This document shows positions 5,055 to 34,511 of a DNA stretch of 37,390 bases, piece after piece. Positions within the stretch are counted from its first letter, which is position 1. The number at the start of each line of letters is the position of its first letter. Source of the stretch: Nitrospiraceae bacterium (GTDB lineage Bacteria > Nitrospirota > Nitrospiria > Nitrospirales > Nitrospiraceae); the NCBI GenBank assembly GCA_005799365.1, contig SYGV01000086.1, positions 1 through 37,390 on the forward strand. Reading direction: 5' to 3'. The notes beneath the pieces are model-generated. The model did not search any database, was not told the DNA's origin, and worked only from the letters and a program-made list of their open reading frames with translations. The translations under genes were made by a program, and so were the position numbers.

Positions 5055-6004
5055 GCGAATCGCACCCAGGCCGCCAGCGCGGTAGCCAGGACCGAAGCCG
5101 CCACCATCAGGACCAAGGCCTGTCGGATGTGGTCCGCCTGCAATGCCTGACCTGGATTCCCGAGGCTGGGTCGCTTGATCACCATCCCCTCGTAGACGTT
5201 CCAGCCGCCGAGCTGGACATGTAGCACCCCTGCCATAGCCGACTCAGGCCAGCCGCTGTTGGGACTCTCATGCTTGCTCGCGTCGCGCATGACAATGGAC
5301 CAGGCTCGCGCGAGTAGGTCGGCGCTGAATTGCATAAGCCCTCCGGCCAGAACCAGCAAGCAGGCCGCGAGGCGTGCCGGGATCCAATTGGCCGCGTCGT
5401 CCAGGCGGGCTGAGCCCCAACCGAAATCACGATACCGTTCATCGCGGTGGCCGACCATGGAGTCCAGGGTGCTGATGGCCTTAAAGGCCAGCGCCAACGG
5501 CGCCCCGCCCAACGCCAGATAAAAAAGCGGCGCGACAACCCCGTCCGCCGTGCTTTCGGCGATGGTCTCCACCGTGGCCCGGACAATTTCCCCTTCCGGC
5601 AACGCCTCCGTATCCCGCCCGACAATATGGGAGAGCGCCGCCCTCGCTCGGTCCAGCCGGCCGGCGTTCAACGCGCGCAAGACCGAGGCCCCATGGTCGG
5701 CCAAGTCCCTAGCCGCCAACGTCGTATAGGCCAGCAGGATTTCCGCGCCGGTCGCCGCCAGCGGATGAACCAGCCAGGCCAGTCGGATCAGGCCCCACCC
5801 GGCAGCCCAAGCGCCGATCGGCAAACCGATCACCAGCGCCAGACCGGCCATGCGAAGTCCAGCCGGTCCCTGCGTGACCCGCCGGACCGTCCGCTCATAC
5901 CAGGCGGCGCACTGGCCCATGAGCCGAACCGGATGGGGCAACCAACGGGGATCGCCCACCAACGTATCCAGCAGGCACGCGAGCAGCAGCGCCGACGCGG
6001 TCAC
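5051..6004 (-). CDS. cbiB: Adenosylcobinamide-phosphate synthase CbiB
   Basis: LLDTLVGDPRWLPHPVRLMG, DGVVAPLFYLALGGAPLALAFKAISTLDSMVGHRDERYRDFGWGSARLDDAANWIPAR; GTG start overlaps cobS stop. Confidence 0.95.
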   Translation of the reverse strand: MTASALLLACLLDTLVGDPRWLPHPVRLMGQCAAWYERTVRRVTQGPAGLRMAGLALVIGLPIGAWAAGWGLIRLAWLVHPLAATGAEILLAYTTLAARDLADHGASVLRALNAGRLDRARAALSHIVGRDTEALPEGEIVRATVETIAESTADGVVAPLFYLALGGAPLALAFKAISTLDSMVGHRDERYRDFGWGSARLDDAANWIPARLAACLLVLAGGLMQFSADLLARAWSIVMRDASKHESPNSGWPESAMAGVLHVQLGGWNVYEGMVIKRPSLGNPGQALQADHIRQALVLMVAASVLATALAAWVRFA

Positions 6005-9986: not shown

Positions 9987-10001
9987 CCGTAATCTCCGCT
10001 C

Positions 10002-10072
10002 GGCAGAAAGCAGTAAGCAGAAGGCAGCCGTTGTTCTGTCGCTGCCTCCCGCCTACTGCCTTTTGCCTTCCT
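10002..10072. repeat. Heptad inverted repeat, pduO/cobQ gap
   Basis: GCAGAAA GCAGTAA GCAGAAG GCAG ... CTGCCTC CCGCCTA CTGCCTT TTGCCTT. Confidence 0.85.
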
Positions 10073-10859: not shown

Positions 10860-10957
10860 CGGGGGATTTTCTGTCATCTCGGGCCGGCGAGCCATTGGCA
10901 TCCGAGTGGTTCCACAATAATGTGTCACAGCTTGCCAAGGAAATGATCCCTCTTTCT

Positions 10958-11898
<941 letters not shown>

Positions 11899-12608: not shown

Positions 12609-13208
12609 TCAAAACTCAATGCCTTTTTGCGCTTTGATGCCCTTTCGAAACGGATGCTTCACCTGCTTCATCTCTGTAACAAGGTCCGCAGCCTCCATCA
12701 ACTCAGGCGAAGCCCCTCGTCCCGTGATCACCGCATGTTGCATGGGCGGTCTGGCCTGGAGCACCGGCAATACGTCGGCGAGCCGGACGTAGCCGTGCTG
12801 GAGCGCGATGTTGAACTCGTCCAGAATGACCATCGCATAGGCCGGGTCGCGAAGCAATGCGGTCGCGGCGGCCCAGGCTTTTTGCGCCATCTCCGTATCC
12901 CTTGCTCGATCCTGCGTCTCCCAGGTATAGCCTTCGCCCATCCGCAGAAAGACGAGTTGCTCGCCGAAGCTTTTCAGCACCCGCTCCTCCGCCGTATCGA
13001 TCGCGCCTTTGATGAATTGCACGATGGCCACGTTCATCCCGTGGCCGATGCAGCGCAGGGCCATGCCCAAGGCGGCGGTGGTTTTTCCCTTCCCCGCGCC
13101 TGTGTAGACGATCACCAGCCCCCTTTCCTCCTGGGCCGCCTCAATGCGCTGGTCCACGGAGGCCTTCAGGCGCTGCATGCGGGCCTGATGCTCGGCATTG
13201 TCCGTCAC
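12609..13208 (-). CDS. cobO: Corrinoid adenosyltransferase, CobA/BtuR (CobO) type
   Basis: GLVIVYTGAGKGKTTAALGMALRCIGHGMNVAIVQFIKG, VILDEFNIAL, VITGRGASPELMEAADLVTEM; GTG start overlaps cobB stop. Confidence 0.95.
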   Translation of the reverse strand: MTDNAEHQARMQRLKASVDQRIEAAQEERGLVIVYTGAGKGKTTAALGMALRCIGHGMNVAIVQFIKGAIDTAEERVLKSFGEQLVFLRMGEGYTWETQDRARDTEMAQKAWAAATALLRDPAYAMVILDEFNIALQHGYVRLADVLPVLQARPPMQHAVITGRGASPELMEAADLVTEMKQVKHPFRKGIKAQKGIEF

Positions 13209-14665
13209 GACGCCACCCCCTTCCCCTCCGCACCCTGCGTGCGCCAAGCCCTTGCCGATGCCACCAGCGCGCGTGCCACGGCCGGCTGGCTGGAAAAATG
13301 GAGATGGGCATAGAGGGCCACCGTGTTGCCCCGCACCAGCCCGTCCGGCGTCCGTGGCTGTGCCTTCGCATCCGTCACGGCGCAGGCATAGTCGAGCGGC
13401 CCTTTGGAGACGAGCGAGGAGTAGTGAAACTCATGCCCCCGCGCTTTGAGGCCGACCGACCCGATCACGCAAGGCTTCGTGATCTCGATTTCACGATAGC
13501 CCAGGGTCAGGCCAGGTTTGCGCATCACGGCTTCGGCCGGAAACAGCCCGACCATCTCGTGGGCCAGCCCCTCGAAATCGCGGATCGCCTGGGTCAGGTA
13601 CATCATGCCCCCGCATTCGGCGTAGATCGTTCCTCCCCTCTCGGCAAAGTCCCGGATCGCGCCGCGCATGGAACTGTTTTTGGCAAGCGCTTCGCCGTAC
13701 AGCTCCGGATAGCCCCCGCCCAGGTAGAGCAGATCAACCTCCGGCAGGACCCGATCTCGAATCGGCGAGAATGTGACCAGTTCGGTCCCCTCCGCTTCCA
13801 ACAGTTCCAGATTCTCCCGGTAATAGAAACAAAAGGCCGGATCGTAGGCGACGCCGACGCGCACCGGCCTGAACGCGGAACGCGGAACGCTGCATGATAA
13901 ACGGGAAGATCCTTCCGCTCCGCATGCAAGTAATTCATCATTCATCATTCCGCAATCTGCATTGAGTTCGCCGGCCGTCCGCGCCAGGGCTTCCACCTTG
14001 TCCAAATCCACGGTTTCGGCCACCGCCTGCCCCAGCTTGTCGTAGAGATCGGTCGAGCCCTGTTCGATGGCCGTCCGTAATCCAAGATGCCGGTCGCCGA
14101 TCGTCAGAGTTGTGTCCGGCTTCAGGTAGCCGACCACCGACACCTTGCTCTCCGTCTCCACCGCTTCTTTGAGCAACTGAAAGTGGCCCTCGCTGCTTAC
14201 CCGGTTGAAGAGGACACCGGCCACGGTCAGGGCCGGATCGAAGGTGCCGTAGCCGTTGACCATCGCCGCGGCCGATCTGGCCATGGAACTCCCGTCGATC
14301 ACGAGGAGAACCGGAGCCCCAAGCAGCTTGGACATCTCGGCTGTGCTGCCGGTCTCGCTGGTCGGCGAACTGCCGTCGAAGAGCCCCATCATGCCTTCGA
14401 TGATCGCGATGTCCGCCTCGGCGGCAGCCCGTCCAAAAATCTTCCGGTTCACGACCTGAGTCAGCATCCACCCGTCCAGATTGCGAGACGGCCGGCCTGC
14501 CGCCATCGTATGGTGGCCTGGGTCAATATAATCTGGTCCGGCCTTGAAGGGCTGGACGGTCCGGCCCCGCTGCCGCAAGGCGGCCAGCAGGGCCAGGGTC
14601 ACCGTGGTCTTGCCGACATTGCTGCCGGTTCCGGCGATGACGAGCCGTGGGATCACCATTAGCAT
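13205..14665 (-). CDS. cobB: Cobyrinate a,c-diamide synthase
   Basis: VIAGTGSNVGKTTVTLALLAALRQRGRTVQPFKAGPDYIDPGHH; YLGGGYPELYGEALAKN; AECGGMMYLTQ; unusual interdomain linker (see findings). Confidence 0.96.
   Translation of the reverse strand: MLMVIPRLVIAGTGSNVGKTTVTLALLAALRQRGRTVQPFKAGPDYIDPGHHTMAAGRPSRNLDGWMLTQVVNRKIFGRAAAEADIAIIEGMMGLFDGSSPTSETGSTAEMSKLLGAPVLLVIDGSSMARSAAAMVNGYGTFDPALTVAGVLFNRVSSEGHFQLLKEAVETESKVSVVGYLKPDTTLTIGDRHLGLRTAIEQGSTDLYDKLGQAVAETVDLDKVEALARTAGELNADCGMMNDELLACGAEGSSRLSCSVPRSAFRPVRVGVAYDPAFCFYYRENLELLEAEGTELVTFSPIRDRVLPEVDLLYLGGGYPELYGEALAKNSSMRGAIRDFAERGGTIYAECGGMMYLTQAIRDFEGLAHEMVGLFPAEAVMRKPGLTLGYREIEITKPCVIGSVGLKARGHEFHYSSLVSKGPLDYACAVTDAKAQPRTPDGLVRGNTVALYAHLHFSSQPAVARALVASARAWRTQGAEGKGVAS
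13871..13965. repeat. Heptad repeats inside cobB coding sequence (interdomain linker)
   Basis: GAACGCG GAACGCG GAACGCT ... ATTCATC ATTCATC ATTCCGC AATCTGC ATT. Confidence 0.82.
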
Positions 14666-14671
14666 CTGCCC

Positions 14672-16615
14672 TCAGGAAAACAAACCATGACTCAGCCGGA
14701 TGCCGAAATAGATCGAACGGACCGGCGTGCCCGCGTTGAGAATTTCCTGGTACCGCTGGTTGAACAGATTATCCGCACGGATATAGGCTTCCATGTGCTT
14801 GGTGACTGTATAGTTGGTGGTCAGGTTCCACACGTCGAAGGCCTGCATCCCCTGACGGTCGGCGGTCGTATTGAACCGCGAACCCACAAAGCGGCCAGCC
14901 AGAATGATGCGCAAGGGATCGATGGGCTGGTACCCGGCCTGGAGGCTCCACTGGTCCACCGGCTGACGCGGCAACCGGCTCCCGTTGCTCATATCTCTCG
15001 TCATCGTGTTAGTGTACTGGCCTTGTACGTCGAAAGCCTTGAGGAGGGGCAGGTCCAGGGTCTGCTTATAGGCGAAGCTGGCCTCAAAACCTTTTGTCGA
15101 GGAATTGCCGACGTTGAGTGGACAATAACCGCTGGTACTGAAGGGCGTACAGACCACGGGATCGTACGTCGTCACAATTTGATTACTATACCGGTTCCAG
15201 AAATAGCCACCGCTGAGTTTCAACCGCTTGCCGAACAGTTCCTGGTCCACCCCCGCGTCGAAACTCTGACTCTTTTCCGGCTTGAGGTTGGGATTGCCGA
15301 AGTCGACAAAATACAGTTCATTGATCGACGGAGCCCGGAACCCTGTCCCATAGCTGGTCCGGAGCTTCGTGTCCGTTTCCTTATGGAGATACCCGCCACT
15401 CAACCGGTAGGTCGTGGCATTTCCGAACACGTTATAGTTGTCCTGGCGGATGCCGGCCGTGCCGAAGACCCGATCCCACAGATTCAACTGGGCCTGGGCA
15501 AACCCCGCGTTCGACGAGACGATTCGCTGCGCAAGCGTATCATTTTTCCCCTGTTGTTCGCGGAATTGGTAGCCGAAGGTGAGTAACAGGGGGTCGGCGA
15601 CTTGCATATTGTGCTGCCACTCAAGACGGTTGCTGAGCGTCTGCGTGGTGTTCGGCGATCCGAATGGGACACTCGTCGCACCGGTGCGCAGATTGCGTTG
15701 GAGATTGCCCGGCCAATAGGGAGCATCTTCTTCGCCACGCGCCAACGTCACTTTCTGATTCCACCAATGGGTAATGGCTTGGTCGTAGCTGCCGCTAAAG
15801 ACAAACTGCTGGCTCTTGTTCTTGGCATTAAACACATCGGCTGGCGTCCCGATGTTGTCGATATTGGTCGAGCCGTTCATCCAACGAAAATTGAACTCGA
15901 GCCGGCCGTCCTTAGGCAGATCCACGCCCAACCGCGAGGAGGCGGTCCAGTTCCTGAAGGAATCCCGCTCCGTCGCGCCGAGCCGGGAATCCGCCGTGGA
16001 AAATCCGGCAAAATCCCACCGCGACAGATCCACGGAAAAGTCCACGGGACCTTTCTTGCCGCTGATCTGGCCCCCTTCTCGAATGGAATTGAAGGAGCCG
16101 TATTCGAAGAACGAACTGGCGGTCGTGCCCCCCGCGCCTTTCTTGGTGACGATATTGATGACCCCGCCCATGGCGTCCGACCCCCACAACATGCTTTGGG
16201 CGCCGCGCAGGATTTCCACCCGCTCGATATTGTCGGTCGTCAAATTGGCAAAATTGTAGGCGCCGGTCGTGGCGCTGTTGACGATGGCCCCGTCGATGAG
16301 CACCAGGGTCTGCGTCACACCGCCCCCACGAATCCGAACGTTCGTATCGGCTCCAGGCCCGCCGCTGGAAAAGACCGCGATGCCTTGCGCCAGCCGCAAG
16401 GCATCGGCCACGGTCTTGAATTTTTGCCGCTGCATCTCCTCGCCAGTGATAACCTCCACCGCGCTGGTGAGGTGACTCACCGGCATAGGCGTCTTGGTGG
16501 CCGAGGTCACCACTTCCTCGGTTTGCACAACCGGCTGCGCATCTTCCGCATGGCCGACTCCGAATCCCCACAACAACACAAACGACAGACCAAGCCCAAT
16601 GACAAACTTCCGCAC
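14672..16615 (-). CDS. btuB: TonB-dependent outer membrane receptor, BtuB-like vitamin B12 receptor
   Basis: VVTSATKTPMPVSHLTSAVEVITGEEMQRQ plug domain, RGGGVTQTLVLIDGA, GAQSMLWGSDAMGGVINIVTKKG, C-terminal beta-barrel; directly downstream of a cobalamin riboswitch; GTG start. Confidence 0.93.
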   Translation of the reverse strand: MRKFVIGLGLSFVLLWGFGVGHAEDAQPVVQTEEVVTSATKTPMPVSHLTSAVEVITGEEMQRQKFKTVADALRLAQGIAVFSSGGPGADTNVRIRGGGVTQTLVLIDGAIVNSATTGAYNFANLTTDNIERVEILRGAQSMLWGSDAMGGVINIVTKKGAGGTTASSFFEYGSFNSIREGGQISGKKGPVDFSVDLSRWDFAGFSTADSRLGATERDSFRNWTASSRLGVDLPKDGRLEFNFRWMNGSTNIDNIGTPADVFNAKNKSQQFVFSGSYDQAITHWWNQKVTLARGEEDAPYWPGNLQRNLRTGATSVPFGSPNTTQTLSNRLEWQHNMQVADPLLLTFGYQFREQQGKNDTLAQRIVSSNAGFAQAQLNLWDRVFGTAGIRQDNYNVFGNATTYRLSGGYLHKETDTKLRTSYGTGFRAPSINELYFVDFGNPNLKPEKSQSFDAGVDQELFGKRLKLSGGYFWNRYSNQIVTTYDPVVCTPFSTSGYCPLNVGNSSTKGFEASFAYKQTLDLPLLKAFDVQGQYTNTMTRDMSNGSRLPRQPVDQWSLQAGYQPIDPLRIILAGRFVGSRFNTTADRQGMQAFDVWNLTTNYTVTKHMEAYIRADNLFNQRYQEILNAGTPVRSIYFGIRLSHGLFS

Positions 16616-16649
16616 AACCCACCTCCCCTTTGACTCGAAGGGCAGAGTG

Positions 16650-16895
16650 AACTGGCTCGACAGCCGGGTGTCCTGACTCGCGGATCGTCGCTCTCCCGCG
16701 CCTTCCCATCTTCAGAAGTTGACAGTCTTGAGTTCTCAGTGTTCAGTTTTCGACTGACAACTGATAACTGTCAACGTCTTCGCGACAGTGGCATTCGTGC
16801 GGGATCACTCCTCGTTTACAGTGGCGGTACCGTGATGGCCTTGCACCATCTTCCCCGTTCTGTCTGCCTCTTCTCTCGACCTATCCTCCCTGTTG
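16650..16895 (-). ncRNA. Cobalamin riboswitch 1 (upstream of btuB operon)
   Basis: Minus strand reads GGGGAAGATGGTGCAAGGCCATCACGGTACCGCCACTGTAAAC...GCCACTGTCGCG...GATGGGAAGGCGCGGG...GAGTCAGGACACCCGGCT (B12 box). Outer boundaries approximate. Confidence 0.93.
16718..16775. repeat. Heptad inverted repeat within cobalamin riboswitch 1
   Basis: GTTGACA GTCTTGA GTTCTCA GTGTTCA GTTTTC / GACTGAC AACTGAT AACTGTC AAC; outer arms GTTGACAG/CTGTCAAC perfect. Confidence 0.88.
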
Positions 16896-16955
16896 CGTGC
16901 CCCCATCCGCCTCAACGAGGAATGGGCACATCTTCCTCGTCGCCATCCAGACGCG

Positions 16956-17859: not shown

Positions 17860-19010
17860 GCCAGCCGGCCCTTCCGCAAAGTCAGGAGATAGATGAAGAA
17901 CGGCCCTCCGGCCAGGGCGGTCACCACGCCCACCGGAATCTCCGTCGGGGCCAGCAACGTCCGCGCGATCGTATCCGCCGCCATCAGATACATGCCCCCC
18001 ACTAGGGCGGAGGCAGGCAAGAGCAGCCGGTGGTCCGCGCCGGCGAGCAGGCGCAGGGCATGCGGAATGACCATGCCGACGAACCCGATCATTCCGCTGA
18101 CCGACACGACTGCGCCCGTCAGCAGCGCCGACGTAAAAAAGACGGTCTGTTTGACTGCCTCGACCTCGACTCCGAGCGCGCGGGCCGACTCTTCCCCGAG
18201 CGTGAGCAGGTTGAGCGAGGCCGCCTGACGGAACAAGACGAGCAGGCCGGTCAGGAGATAGGCGGCCAGCACCAGCATGGCCGGGTAGTCCGGCGCGGTC
18301 AGCGTCCCCATCAGCCAGGACATCATGCCGAACGAGCGATTCGGCTCCATGATCGACGTCACGAACATGACCAGCGCGGAGAAGACGGCGTTGAGAATCA
18401 CCCCGGCCAGCAACAGGGTATGGATGGGCAGATATCCGTACGCGGTCGCAATACGGTAAACCACGAGCACGGAGAGCAACCCTCCGGCCATGGCGCAGAG
18501 AGAGAGCGCCGAAAAGGCCAGGGCCGTGCCCGTCAACCCGAACAGGATCGCCAGCCCGGCGCCCAGCGCCGCCCCGCTGGAAATACCGAGCACATAGGGA
18601 TCGGCCAGCGGATTCCGAAACAGGGCTTGAAGCCCCACGCCGACGGCTGCCAGACAGCCTCCGACCATGAAGGCTAGCAGCACCCGCGGCAATCGCACTT
18701 GCAATAAAATGACGCCGCTTGCGCCGGCCGATTCAAGACCTGCCGGGCCCGCGCCGATGGCCAGACTTACGATGCGAATCTCTTCGGCAAGCCCGATGCG
18801 CTCCGCGCCGAACTGCAGGCAGATTAGCAGCACGAGGACGGCGGCCGCAGCCAAGGCCGATAGGGTGAGCAGCCACCGCAAGGGCGACAGCCTGGATGAC
18901 CCGACCGGCGCGACACATGACGGCCTTGCGGCTTCTCCTGCCGGCGCCACAAACGCAGTCGCGACGGCCTTTCGTTCTTCCGATCGGGTCTGTCCGGCCA
19001 TGAGTCCCAT
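17856..19010 (-). CDS. btuC: B12 ABC transporter permease (FecCD family)
   Basis: RLPRVLLAFMVGGCLAAVGVGLQALFRNPLADPYVLGISSGAALGAGLAI; SGMIGFVGMVIPHALRLLAGADHR. Confidence 0.93.
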   Translation of the reverse strand: MGLMAGQTRSEERKAVATAFVAPAGEAARPSCVAPVGSSRLSPLRWLLTLSALAAAAVLVLLICLQFGAERIGLAEEIRIVSLAIGAGPAGLESAGASGVILLQVRLPRVLLAFMVGGCLAAVGVGLQALFRNPLADPYVLGISSGAALGAGLAILFGLTGTALAFSALSLCAMAGGLLSVLVVYRIATAYGYLPIHTLLLAGVILNAVFSALVMFVTSIMEPNRSFGMMSWLMGTLTAPDYPAMLVLAAYLLTGLLVLFRQAASLNLLTLGEESARALGVEVEAVKQTVFFTSALLTGAVVSVSGMIGFVGMVIPHALRLLAGADHRLLLPASALVGGMYLMAADTIARTLLAPTEIPVGVVTALAGGPFFIYLLTLRKGRLA

Positions 19011-20011
19011 TACGGCCCTGGCCCCTGTTCAAACGCCTCCGGGTGGATGATCCGGGCCAACGCCTCCAGCCCCTGGGCAATCCTGGGACCGGGCCGGTTC
19101 AGCAGATCGGCGGCAATCTGATGGAACCGCTGATGCTTGACGGCCGAGAGCGTGGTCCATCGCCGCCACTGTTGCTGCTCGCCCTCGGAAACGCTCTCGG
19201 CGCCGCCGACGGGAAAGATCAGGACCTCCGGGTCCTCCTTCAGCACCTCTTCCAGGCTCAGTCGGGGGTACGGAGCCTGCGCACGGCCGGCGACATTGAC
19301 GCCGCCGGCCAGCTCGATCATCTGATGGATAAAACTCCCGGGCCCGACCGTGATGAGCGGCTGGCTGTTCAGGACGTACAGCACGCGCAAACGCGGACGT
19401 TCCTGCACCCTGGCCCTGATCGCCGCAATCTGCCGCCGCATCTCGGTGGCCACCCGATCGCCAGCCTGGGAACGGTCCATCATCCGTCCGATGATCTGGA
19501 CGTGGGAGGGAATCTCCTCCATGGCCTTGGCCTCCAGAATGAAGGTGGGAATTTTAAGCTGTTCGAGCTTGGCCAGGGTATCCGCCCGAAGGAACGTACT
19601 GGGGGCCAGGACCAGGTCCGGCCTCAACGCGACGATGGACTCCAGATTCGGATTCGAATATCCGACTTTCGGTTTGGCGCGGGCCTGCGGCGGATAGTCG
19701 CAATAATCGGTCACCCCGACGATTTCCTCGTCGAGCCCGAGGCTGTAGAGGATTTCCGTCATGCTGGGCGCCAGCGACACTACCCGGGCCGGTCGTTTGG
19801 CCAGGTAGAGCTTGCGGCCCAAGTCGTCCAGAAAGGTCCGCTCAGCCAGATTGGCCATGAACGGCATGCCCGTGAGGATGCCTTGCTGCCGCCGATTCAG
19901 AGCCATATCATCACTCTCACCGGCCTGCGCAACGCCGGTGGTCCATAGCAACGCCAGGCAGAAGCACCAGGCTCCAACCAGGGCGCAACCCTGCGGTCGA
20001 CGGTTCCGCAA
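19010..20011 (-). CDS. btuF: B12 ABC transporter substrate-binding protein (proposed TTG start)
   Basis: PARVVSLAPSMTEILYSLGLDEEIVGVTDYCDYPPQAR...; signal peptide MRNRRPQGCALVGAWCFCLALLWTTGVAQA if TTG at 20011 is the start; the ORF-track start 20035 lies inside a terminator-like hairpin. Confidence 0.9.
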   Translation of the reverse strand: MRNRRPQGCALVGAWCFCLALLWTTGVAQAGESDDMALNRRQQGILTGMPFMANLAERTFLDDLGRKLYLAKRPARVVSLAPSMTEILYSLGLDEEIVGVTDYCDYPPQARAKPKVGYSNPNLESIVALRPDLVLAPSTFLRADTLAKLEQLKIPTFILEAKAMEEIPSHVQIIGRMMDRSQAGDRVATEMRRQIAAIRARVQERPRLRVLYVLNSQPLITVGPGSFIHQMIELAGGVNVAGRAQAPYPRLSLEEVLKEDPEVLIFPVGGAESVSEGEQQQWRRWTTLSAVKHQRFHQIAADLLNRPGPRIAQGLEALARIIHPEAFEQGPGP

Positions 20012-20013
20012 AT

Positions 20014-20050
20014 AAAAAATCCCCAAGGCCTGCAAAAGACCCTGAGGATT
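20014..20050 (-). terminator. Rho-independent terminator-like hairpin between riboswitch 2 and btuF
   Basis: Minus strand AATCCTCAGGG-tcttttgcagg-CCTTGGGGATT followed by TTTT; 11-bp stem with two G-U pairs. Confidence 0.72.
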
Positions 20051-20104
20051 GCACCCGCTTCTTCACCCTCACTCTTTCCCCAGCCCACGAGGGAAAGACG
20101 GCCA

Positions 20105-20360
20105 TGCTCCGGGGAGGTCTTCTGGCTTAGGGTTCGACTCTACTCCCCGCGCCTTCCCATCTCTTTAAACCGTGATCTGTGATGTGTGATACGTGATGCG
20201 TCAGAGGAGTTTCTGGTTCACCTCTGAACCCATTACTGATCACTCGTCACTTGTCACCGTCGCCAAGACAGTGGCTTCCGCGGGTTTCGTCCCCATTACA
20301 GCGGCGGGACCGCGAGGGAGTTGCACCCTCTTCCCTTGACCCGGAGGTATGATTTGTAGA
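20105..20360 (-). ncRNA. Cobalamin riboswitch 2 (upstream of btuFCD)
   Basis: Minus strand GGGAAGAGGGTGCAACTCCCTCGCGGTCCCGCCGCTGTAATGGGG...GAAGCCACTGTC...GATGGGAAGGCGCGGGG...TAAGCCAGAAGACCTCCCC (B12 box). Confidence 0.93.
20172..20258. repeat. Heptad inverted repeat within cobalamin riboswitch 2
   Basis: GTGATCT GTGATGT GTGATAC GTGATGC GTCAGAG ... CTCTGA ... ACTGATC ACTCGTC ACTTGTC AC. Confidence 0.88.
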
Positions 20361-25816: not shown

Positions 25817-25914
25817 GGAGCTGATGGCTGATGGCGTATGGCAGGAATGGATAAGAGAGCGGAAAAAGATTTCTCGCTCGGAGCCGTCAGCTATCGGCCA
25901 TCGCCATATGCTCC
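25817..25914. repeat. Heptad inverted repeat upstream of the redoxin gene
   Basis: GGAGCTGATGGCTGATGGCGTATGGC ... GCCGTCAGCTATCGGCCATCGCCATATGCTCC. Confidence 0.75.
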
Positions 25915-27400: not shown

Positions 27401-27474
27401 AACGATGAGTGATAAACGATGAATGATGAATTTCCGCGCCCGGCCGTTCATCATTTCATATTCTGCATTCATCA

Positions 27475-27479
<5 letters not shown>
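27401..27479. repeat. Heptad inverted repeat between purL and purF
   Basis: ACGATGA GTGATAA ACGATGA ATGATGA ... TTCATCA TTTCATA TTCTGCA TTCATCA. Confidence 0.82.
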
Positions 27480-31232: not shown

Positions 31233-31325
31233 GGACGAGTTCTCGGTTAACAGTGATCAGTACTCAGTTGAGTGATGGTCGGCGCCGACTTTACGTTCAT
31301 CGTTCAGCATTCATCGTTCATCACT
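31233..31325. repeat. Two heptad blocks between purS and purQ
   Basis: GTTCTCG GTTAACA GTGATCA GTACTCA GTTGAG; GTTCATC GTTCAGC ATTCATC GTTCATC ACTG. Confidence 0.82.
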
Positions 31326-31560
31326 GCAATTCAAACCGATATTCTTCGATGATCGTATTGGCCAGCAATTTCTCGCACATGGCCTTGACCTCAGCCTCAG
31401 CCTTCGCCTTGTCTTTTTCCGCCAGGTCCAGTTCCACATACTTGCCCACCCGCACGTTGCCGGCCGACTTGAACCCCAAGGTCTCCAAGGCATGTTCGAT
31501 GGCCTTTCCCTGCGGATCGAGAATGCCTTGCTTCAGCGTCACATGAATCTTCGCCTTCAC
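31321..31560 (-). CDS. purS: Phosphoribosylformylglycinamidine synthase subunit PurS
   Basis: IHVTLKQGILDPQGKAIEHALETLGF...VGKYVELDL. Confidence 0.96.
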   Translation of the reverse strand: MKAKIHVTLKQGILDPQGKAIEHALETLGFKSAGNVRVGKYVELDLAEKDKAKAEAEVKAMCEKLLANTIIEEYRFELQ

Positions 31561-33989: not shown

Positions 33990-34083
33990 ATTCGGTTATC
34001 AGTTTTCAGTTTCCGGAACCGATCACTGAGAACTGGATACCGACAACCCCGTTCCCACGCGTCACGCATCACGCTTCACGCCA
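33990..34083. repeat. Two heptad blocks between nusB and purB
   Basis: GGTTATCA GTTTTCA GTTTCCG GAACCGATCACTGAGAACTG; CGCGTCA CGCATCA CGCTTCA CGCCAAC. Confidence 0.82.
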
Positions 34084-34511
34084 ACCAGTTCGGCCCGCTT
34101 GACCTCCAGTCGCGGGTCTGACTTGAGCACCTGGTCCAGAATCCCGTTGACAAACTTTTTCGTCTCCTCATCCGCAAATCGTTTGGCCAGCTCGAGCGCT
34201 TCATTGACCGTGACCTTGGCCGGCACGTCGGGCATATAACAGAGCTCATAAAGAGCCGCCCGCAGAATGTTGCGGTCCACGATCGGCATGCGGCTCACTT
34301 TCCAATTCGCCGCATGGGCACCGAGCAGCTTGTCTAGTTCCGGTCGGTTCGTCAGGACCCCCTCGACGAGTTGCTCGGCAAACCGCTTCACCTCCGGCTC
34401 GACCTGGTGCTGGGCCTCGAAATCGGCGAGCCAATGTCCGCCCTTTCCATGGACGTCCCATTGGAAAAGGATTTGCAACGCACGTTCGCGGGACTGTCGG
34501 CGAATGCCCAT
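34062..34511 (-). CDS. nusB: Transcription antitermination factor NusB
   Basis: RRQSRERALQILFQWDVHG; ILRAALYELCYMPDVPAKVTVNEALELAKRFADEETKKFVNGILD. Confidence 0.96.
   Translation of the reverse strand: MGIRRQSRERALQILFQWDVHGKGGHWLADFEAQHQVEPEVKRFAEQLVEGVLTNRPELDKLLGAHAANWKVSRMPIVDRNILRAALYELCYMPDVPAKVTVNEALELAKRFADEETKKFVNGILDQVLKSDPRLEVKRAELVGVKRDA

Follow-up and report, generated by a model that had tools for sequence, protein, structure and literature searches.

The window is a stretch of 37,390 nucleotides from a Nitrospiraceae bacterium, contig C60 of a 1.63-Mb assembly (G000) that is 77% complete. It carries cobB, the gene for cobyrinic acid a,c-diamide synthase, whose open frame encodes 486 amino acids. 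Pfam places CbiA at residues 7-186 and GATase_3 at residues 268-459, giving the window protein both the CbiA-type nucleotide-binding domain and the GATase_3 domain by which CobB/CbiA is recognized. Two arrays of seven-base words (heptads), GAACGCG in 2.9 copies at 13871-13890 and ATTCATC in 2.6 copies at 13933-13950, fall between the two domains, and the heptad tract is therefore placed in the interdomain linker. The original prediction had located both arrays here, inside a genuine cobB frame, and was right; each consists of 100% matches. The AlphaFold model of CobB has a mean pLDDT of 90.1, with residues 237-262 below 50 and so disordered. A search by sequence returned no PDB match for a solved CobB structure.

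Table 1. Heptad elements of the window and the features that contain them
Feature	Position	Strand	Context and remarks
cobB (cobyrinic acid a,c-diamide synthase), gene carrying the insert	13205-14665	minus	CbiA and GATase_3 Pfam matches; orthologs 60-85% identical
Heptad hairpin element, in frame	13866-13965	minus	codes for about residues 233-265 (~33 residues) of the CobB linker
Arm 1, GAACGCG x2.9 plus variants	13866-13899	plus	3' arm in the mRNA
Arm 2, ATTCATC x2.6 plus variants	13930-13963	plus	5' arm in the mRNA
Cobalamin riboswitch	16645-16900	minus	RF00174, 81.9 bits, 71-nt insertion; heptad arms TCAGTT/AACTGA at 16724-16777 in the variable stem
Cobalamin riboswitch	20095-20360	minus	RF00174, 86 bits, 101-nt insertion; heptad arms GTGATGT/ACATCAC at 20165-20259 in the variable stem
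Heptad element, GTGAGGC/CCTTACG words	8392-8481		gene edge
Heptad element, GCAGAAG/CTGCCTT words	10000-10071
Heptad array, TCTCATT/ATTCATC words	10957-10994		intergenic
Heptad element, GCTGATG words	25817-25905
Heptad element of the GATGAAT/ATTCATC word family, inverted arms	27401-27476		intergenic
Heptad element, CGTTCAT/ATTCATC words	31239-31326		intergenic; given as 31233 in the original prediction
Heptad arrays, TTCAGTT and CACGCAT	33990-34086

On the mRNA strand, the two cobB arrays are complementary arms. This was overlooked by the original prediction, which treated the tract as a captured repeat, a reading that stands, but did not recognize the arrays as the inverted arms of a single hairpin element. 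The corresponding insert of the sister species (L002) is predicted to form a stem of about 30 pairs (-38.4 kcal/mol, z -4.2). Six of seven CobB inserts are predicted to be more stable than their shuffles (z -2.4 to -4.7), the remaining values being -4.7 for L003, -4.0 for L034, -3.5 for L005, -3.2 for L009 and -2.4 for the window copy; L011, at -0.9, is not. These scores depend on the segment chosen, longer flanks weakening them, and the window copy then falls to -0.9.

Within the window, arrays detected at 16/20 matches over periods 3-15 have only period 7 (seven arrays) or its harmonic 14 (two). The ATTCATC word lies far above chance: ATTCATCATTCATC, allowing up to two mismatches, occurs eight times where 0.21 would be expected, and eight occurrences are not attained in any of 100 shuffles. 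Recurrence of the cobB words at 10958, 27401 and 31233, as originally proposed, accordingly holds for the ATTCATC/CGTTCAT family. It fails for GAACGCG, which we discarded as a recurring word: the exact double word is found once in the whole 1.63-Mb assembly, and its near-matches in the window are at chance level. The GAACGCG copies are best read as drifted GAACGCT, since GAACGCT occupies this position in the sister species.

Alignment of 98 dereplicated CobBs, mainly from Nitrospiraceae, bears out the expectation of an enlarged linker: it measures 44 residues in the window protein and 25-31 in nearly all of the set. The excess is smaller than the 25-30 residues predicted, the linker being only some 15-18 residues longer than usual, while the heptad-derived part amounts to about 33. 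Nor is the insertion species-specific, as had been supposed, for the insert is shared by a second species of the genus (G001), whose CobB is 85% identical. Because G001 is a separate genome, an assembly artefact, which would have undone the original proposal, is unlikely.

Heptads, judged by a period-7 score and by eye, are present in ten of the 98 CobBs (L001, L002, L003, L005, L009, L011, L024, L031, L034 and L138). Their words differ: GATGAAT/GAACGCT in L001 and L002, GTGAAAG in L003, GTGAGGN/GTTAGNN in L005, L009, L034 and L138, and CACGCAT in L024, where one arm has been lost. The linkers of the other 88 show no sign of structure (mean z -0.60). A tree built without the linker spreads the heptad CobBs over about four separate branches, including one nested deeply in a group with 25-26-residue linkers; this number, counted by eye on a tree of mixed branch support, is approximate. 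Three linker states occur among four species of one genus, G000 and G001 sharing a word, G003 having another and G002 none. This repeated occupation of the CobB linker by different words had also escaped the original prediction. A different palindrome, CCCTCCCC/GGGGAGGG, is found at the same site in three further CobBs (L008, L033 and L036, Nitrospira moscoviensis), so that the linker has been a site for repeats of at least two classes.

The same kind of element is found in other protein linkers and in both cobalamin riboswitches of the window, hosts likewise missed at the outset. A HerA-like ATPase of the window's genome (L203, positions 393-2837, contig C15) contains a similar heptad tract, and most of its orthologs, in 15 genomes, have inverted heptads in the equivalent linker, with differing words: GTGAGGC in G000 and G003, GGGCAAG in G001 and CGTCANN in G015, the last being also the dominant word among the other arrays of G015. 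The mean folding z of these linkers is -2.5, against -0.3 for control coding segments. In one of them (L224), a palindrome similar to CCCTCCCC...GGGGAGGG stands together with heptads. In-gene arrays also occur between the molybdopterin domains of a NuoG-like protein, directly past the catalytic domain of an M1 aminopeptidase and within the N-terminal linker of a copper-type P-type ATPase, with one case each in another P-type ATPase and a Cas6. Some in-gene matches, being GC-rich, may be due to chance.

RNase P RNA was considered as a further host and set aside: its loci and their surroundings have few, weak period-7 matches and no clear heptad hairpin. In cyanobacteria, Vioque reportedly described in 1997 a heptameric STRR repeat inside RNase P RNA, the nearest RNA case.

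Of the window's riboswitches, the one at 16645-16900 lies upstream of a gene for a BtuB-like receptor (14672-16615) and that at 20095-20360 upstream of a gene at 19010-20035. Alignment to the Rfam model puts both insertions in the stem flanked by GCCACTG and GGGAAGG. The length of this variable stem is bimodal among 27 riboswitches from 16 genomes, being either 9-15 nt (seven cases) or 78-110 nt (twenty), and 18 of the 20 long stems have a period-7 score of at least 13. The riboswitch nearest cobB has a CAGTTNT word in G000, GTGANNN in G001 and TCAGCNN in G003, with a 9-nt stem in G002. The GTGANNN elements of the two G001 riboswitches are homologous, loop included. In two riboswitch stems (L338 in G013, L337 in G011), GCGTCNATA-type units measure about nine bases, not seven. 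These hairpins have several fixed permissive sites, the CobB linker among them, which they have occupied repeatedly; at one and the same site related species have the element, lack it or have it with another word.

The elements are abundant, mainly intergenic and coherent in word between their arms. Contig stretches totalling 1.43 Mb from eleven genomes, searched at a cut-off of 15/20 matches, yield 186 period-7 arrays, 165 of them outside genes or at gene edges and 21 inside, in DNA that is 80% coding; the gene calls come from a custom caller, and some of the arrays listed as in-gene are GC-rich chance matches (e.g. L202 and L265). Periods 6, 9 and 12 have the opposite distribution, mainly inside genes, and period 8 gives 12 arrays. 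Of 108 neighbouring array pairs in the sampled genomes, 89 share a 6-mer in inverted and 15 in direct orientation. Per strand, an average of 0.46 of the three frames stays open through an intergenic element, compared with 1.70 of three for random DNA of equal length; a given frame is open in about 15% of cases, compared with about 57% in random genomic DNA. Most insertions into a gene would therefore stop it, and the in-frame copies are a filtered minority.

The words appear to track the genome in which they are found. When linker k-mers are used to rank eleven genomes by their arrays, the linker's own genome comes at a mean of 3.1-3.6 (permutation p 0.0002-0.0024 with genome totals normalised; weaker without normalisation, p 0.04). 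Support for this sequence-based trend is moderate, since genomes from the same genus do not count as independent. Particular 16-mers are also repeated across genomes: GTGAGGCGTTAGGCGT, for example, has 56 occurrences spread over 26 of 172 genomes, and a reversed control has none. Among loci of one genome, 16-31% of arm 8-mers are shared (outside G015), compared with 0-1.5% of loop 8-mers, a segmental duplication excepted. The latter is in G015 (L117), where identical heptad elements at 5104-5201 and 14267-14364 lie in copies 9 kb apart. Since arms are common to loci and loops are not, the elements have not simply been moving as intact copies, or at any rate not recently.

Taken together, these observations suggest, with a probability of about 0.6, that the cobB tract is one of many dispersed, neutral or selfish hairpin elements that settle at permissive sites in Nitrospiraceae genomes, in the manner of the Rickettsia palindromic elements (RPE). 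The original idea of an intergenic-type repeat held in frame at a tolerant linker is upheld by a linker longer than in orthologs, disordered in the model and with words matching its own genome's arrays. Each element consists of two inverted arms of 2-5 copies of a degenerate seven-base word around an unrelated loop. Such units, about 70-110 bp long, would settle wherever an additional hairpin or disordered peptide can be tolerated, as between genes, in protein linkers or at the tip of a riboswitch stem. The word would then spread along an arm by seven-base slippage and be transferred to the other arm by template switching during replication, which is documented elsewhere as giving rise to hairpins (PMC8794818; also PMC8604942), and the two processes together would keep the hairpin paired while its word changes. 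Within genes only in-frame, stop-free copies would survive, and the cobB element may have been retained because it is both and lies in a disordered joint. We infer the spreading mechanism and the arrival of the same words at many loci; slippage with template switching fits the paired change of words, but alone does not explain the same words at many loci. Entry as a unit is likewise something that we infer, since the genomes compared show the inverted arms but neither an empty/filled pair of near-identical strains nor a target-site duplication.

Alternatively, slippage during replication of the native linker might have generated the arrays on the spot, with nothing copied from elsewhere. According to Mrazek 2007, as cited in PMC4679880, slippage-type repeats in many bacteria most often have a unit of seven bases; loops that differ from locus to locus also speak for this origin. 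Slippage should produce direct repeats, whereas neighbouring arrays are predominantly inverted; it also sits poorly with the lack of intermediate riboswitch stem lengths, with specific 16-mers scattered over many genomes and with words that match their own genome, and we consider this origin rather unlikely. Still more doubtful is a REP- or MITE-like element moved by a transposase, RAYT or other. Inverted arms, dispersal and intragenic copies are all features of REPs (PMC3733652), and both G001 riboswitches have a homologous element, loop included, but loops and ends are otherwise not common to loci, target-site duplications were not seen and no transposase for the elements was identified. In particular, a Y1_Tnp/RAYT gene is missing from three heptad-rich genomes, G000 (77% complete), G001 and G003 (both 99-100% complete); such genes are present in G002, G005 and G008. 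RAYT was rejected as the mover, being found within the window's genus only in G002.

A further proposal is that selection maintains the hairpin, whether as a regulatory site or as an mRNA structure at the domain boundary, where it might pause translation to aid co-translational folding or affect transcript stability. The stability of the predicted hairpins and the persistence of pairing through changes of word speak for it, as does the low fourfold-site divergence of inserts common to two species (2/14 and 1/15, with flanks at 70/218 and 82/201; pooled, 3/29 versus 152/419, from small counts of sites). Against this, the host proteins are unrelated, 88 of the 98 CobBs do without both insert and structure, L011 folds no better than its shuffles, L024 is down to one arm and pairing is weaker in L001 than in L002; selection is thus an improbable explanation. 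The fourfold-site divergence is the sole hint of constraint on the insert. Judged from sequence comparison, this low divergence could reflect constraint and hence function; it could also reflect copying between elements. Most likely, the insert does nothing for CobB and is carried along as a neutral passenger. Returning to the dispersed-element reading, we tentatively extend it to an ongoing, transposase-independent process in Nitrospiraceae that may write paired heptad hairpins into permissive sites and rewrite their words over time, so that linkers and riboswitch stems at fixed positions would come to exchange paired words between sister species.

The components of this picture are already known separately, in-frame palindromes from RPE and heptameric repeats from STRR, TAACTGA and GGGAATC. 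In the literature searched, which covered sources outside subscription journals, we found no description of their combination, recurring at fixed sites with changing words, and no paper on heptads in Nitrospira. Since the sites are fixed and the words variable, they offer a natural series for studying the origin, the spread and the continued pairing of short inverted repeats, as well as the way in which these add disordered peptide to enzymes. For annotation, the message is that differences in linker length among Nitrospira proteins may represent repeat insertions.

Among known systems, the heptameric tandem repeats, STRR of cyanobacteria and TAACTGA of Beggiatoaceae (PMC4679880) and GGGAATC of Xanthomonas and Nostoc (PMC4692102), share with the present elements period 7, low copy number per array and a mostly intergenic location with occasional copies in genes. 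They are mainly direct repeats of one word, lying in genes mostly at protein ends, whereas here the arms are inverted, each genome uses many words, and the hosts are interdomain linkers and riboswitch stems. REP and REPIN sequences with their RAYT (PMC3733652, PMC3116915) are likewise short, dispersed inverted repeats, some in coding regions, but the seven-base periodicity and the three heptad-rich genomes without a RAYT gene set the present elements apart. Template-switch mutation at quasipalindromes (PMC8794818, PMC8604942) makes or perfects inverted repeats, coding sequence included; it is known as a local event, unlike the dispersed family with a seven-base unit described here. The closest parallel is with the Rickettsia palindromic elements (Ogata 2000, 2002). 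As portrayed in a review (PMC10969869), these too are palindromic, occur also between genes and lie in frame in unrelated, housekeeping proteins; each family has one sequence and a conserved peptide, whereas the Nitrospiraceae elements are built of seven-base tandem words that vary by locus and species and encode no conserved peptide. In-frame palindromic repeats in proteins have long been regarded as a peculiarity of Rickettsia. A free-living phylum displays a related phenomenon, with a seven-base unit, in which many species have the same linkers and the same riboswitch stem occupied by different words.
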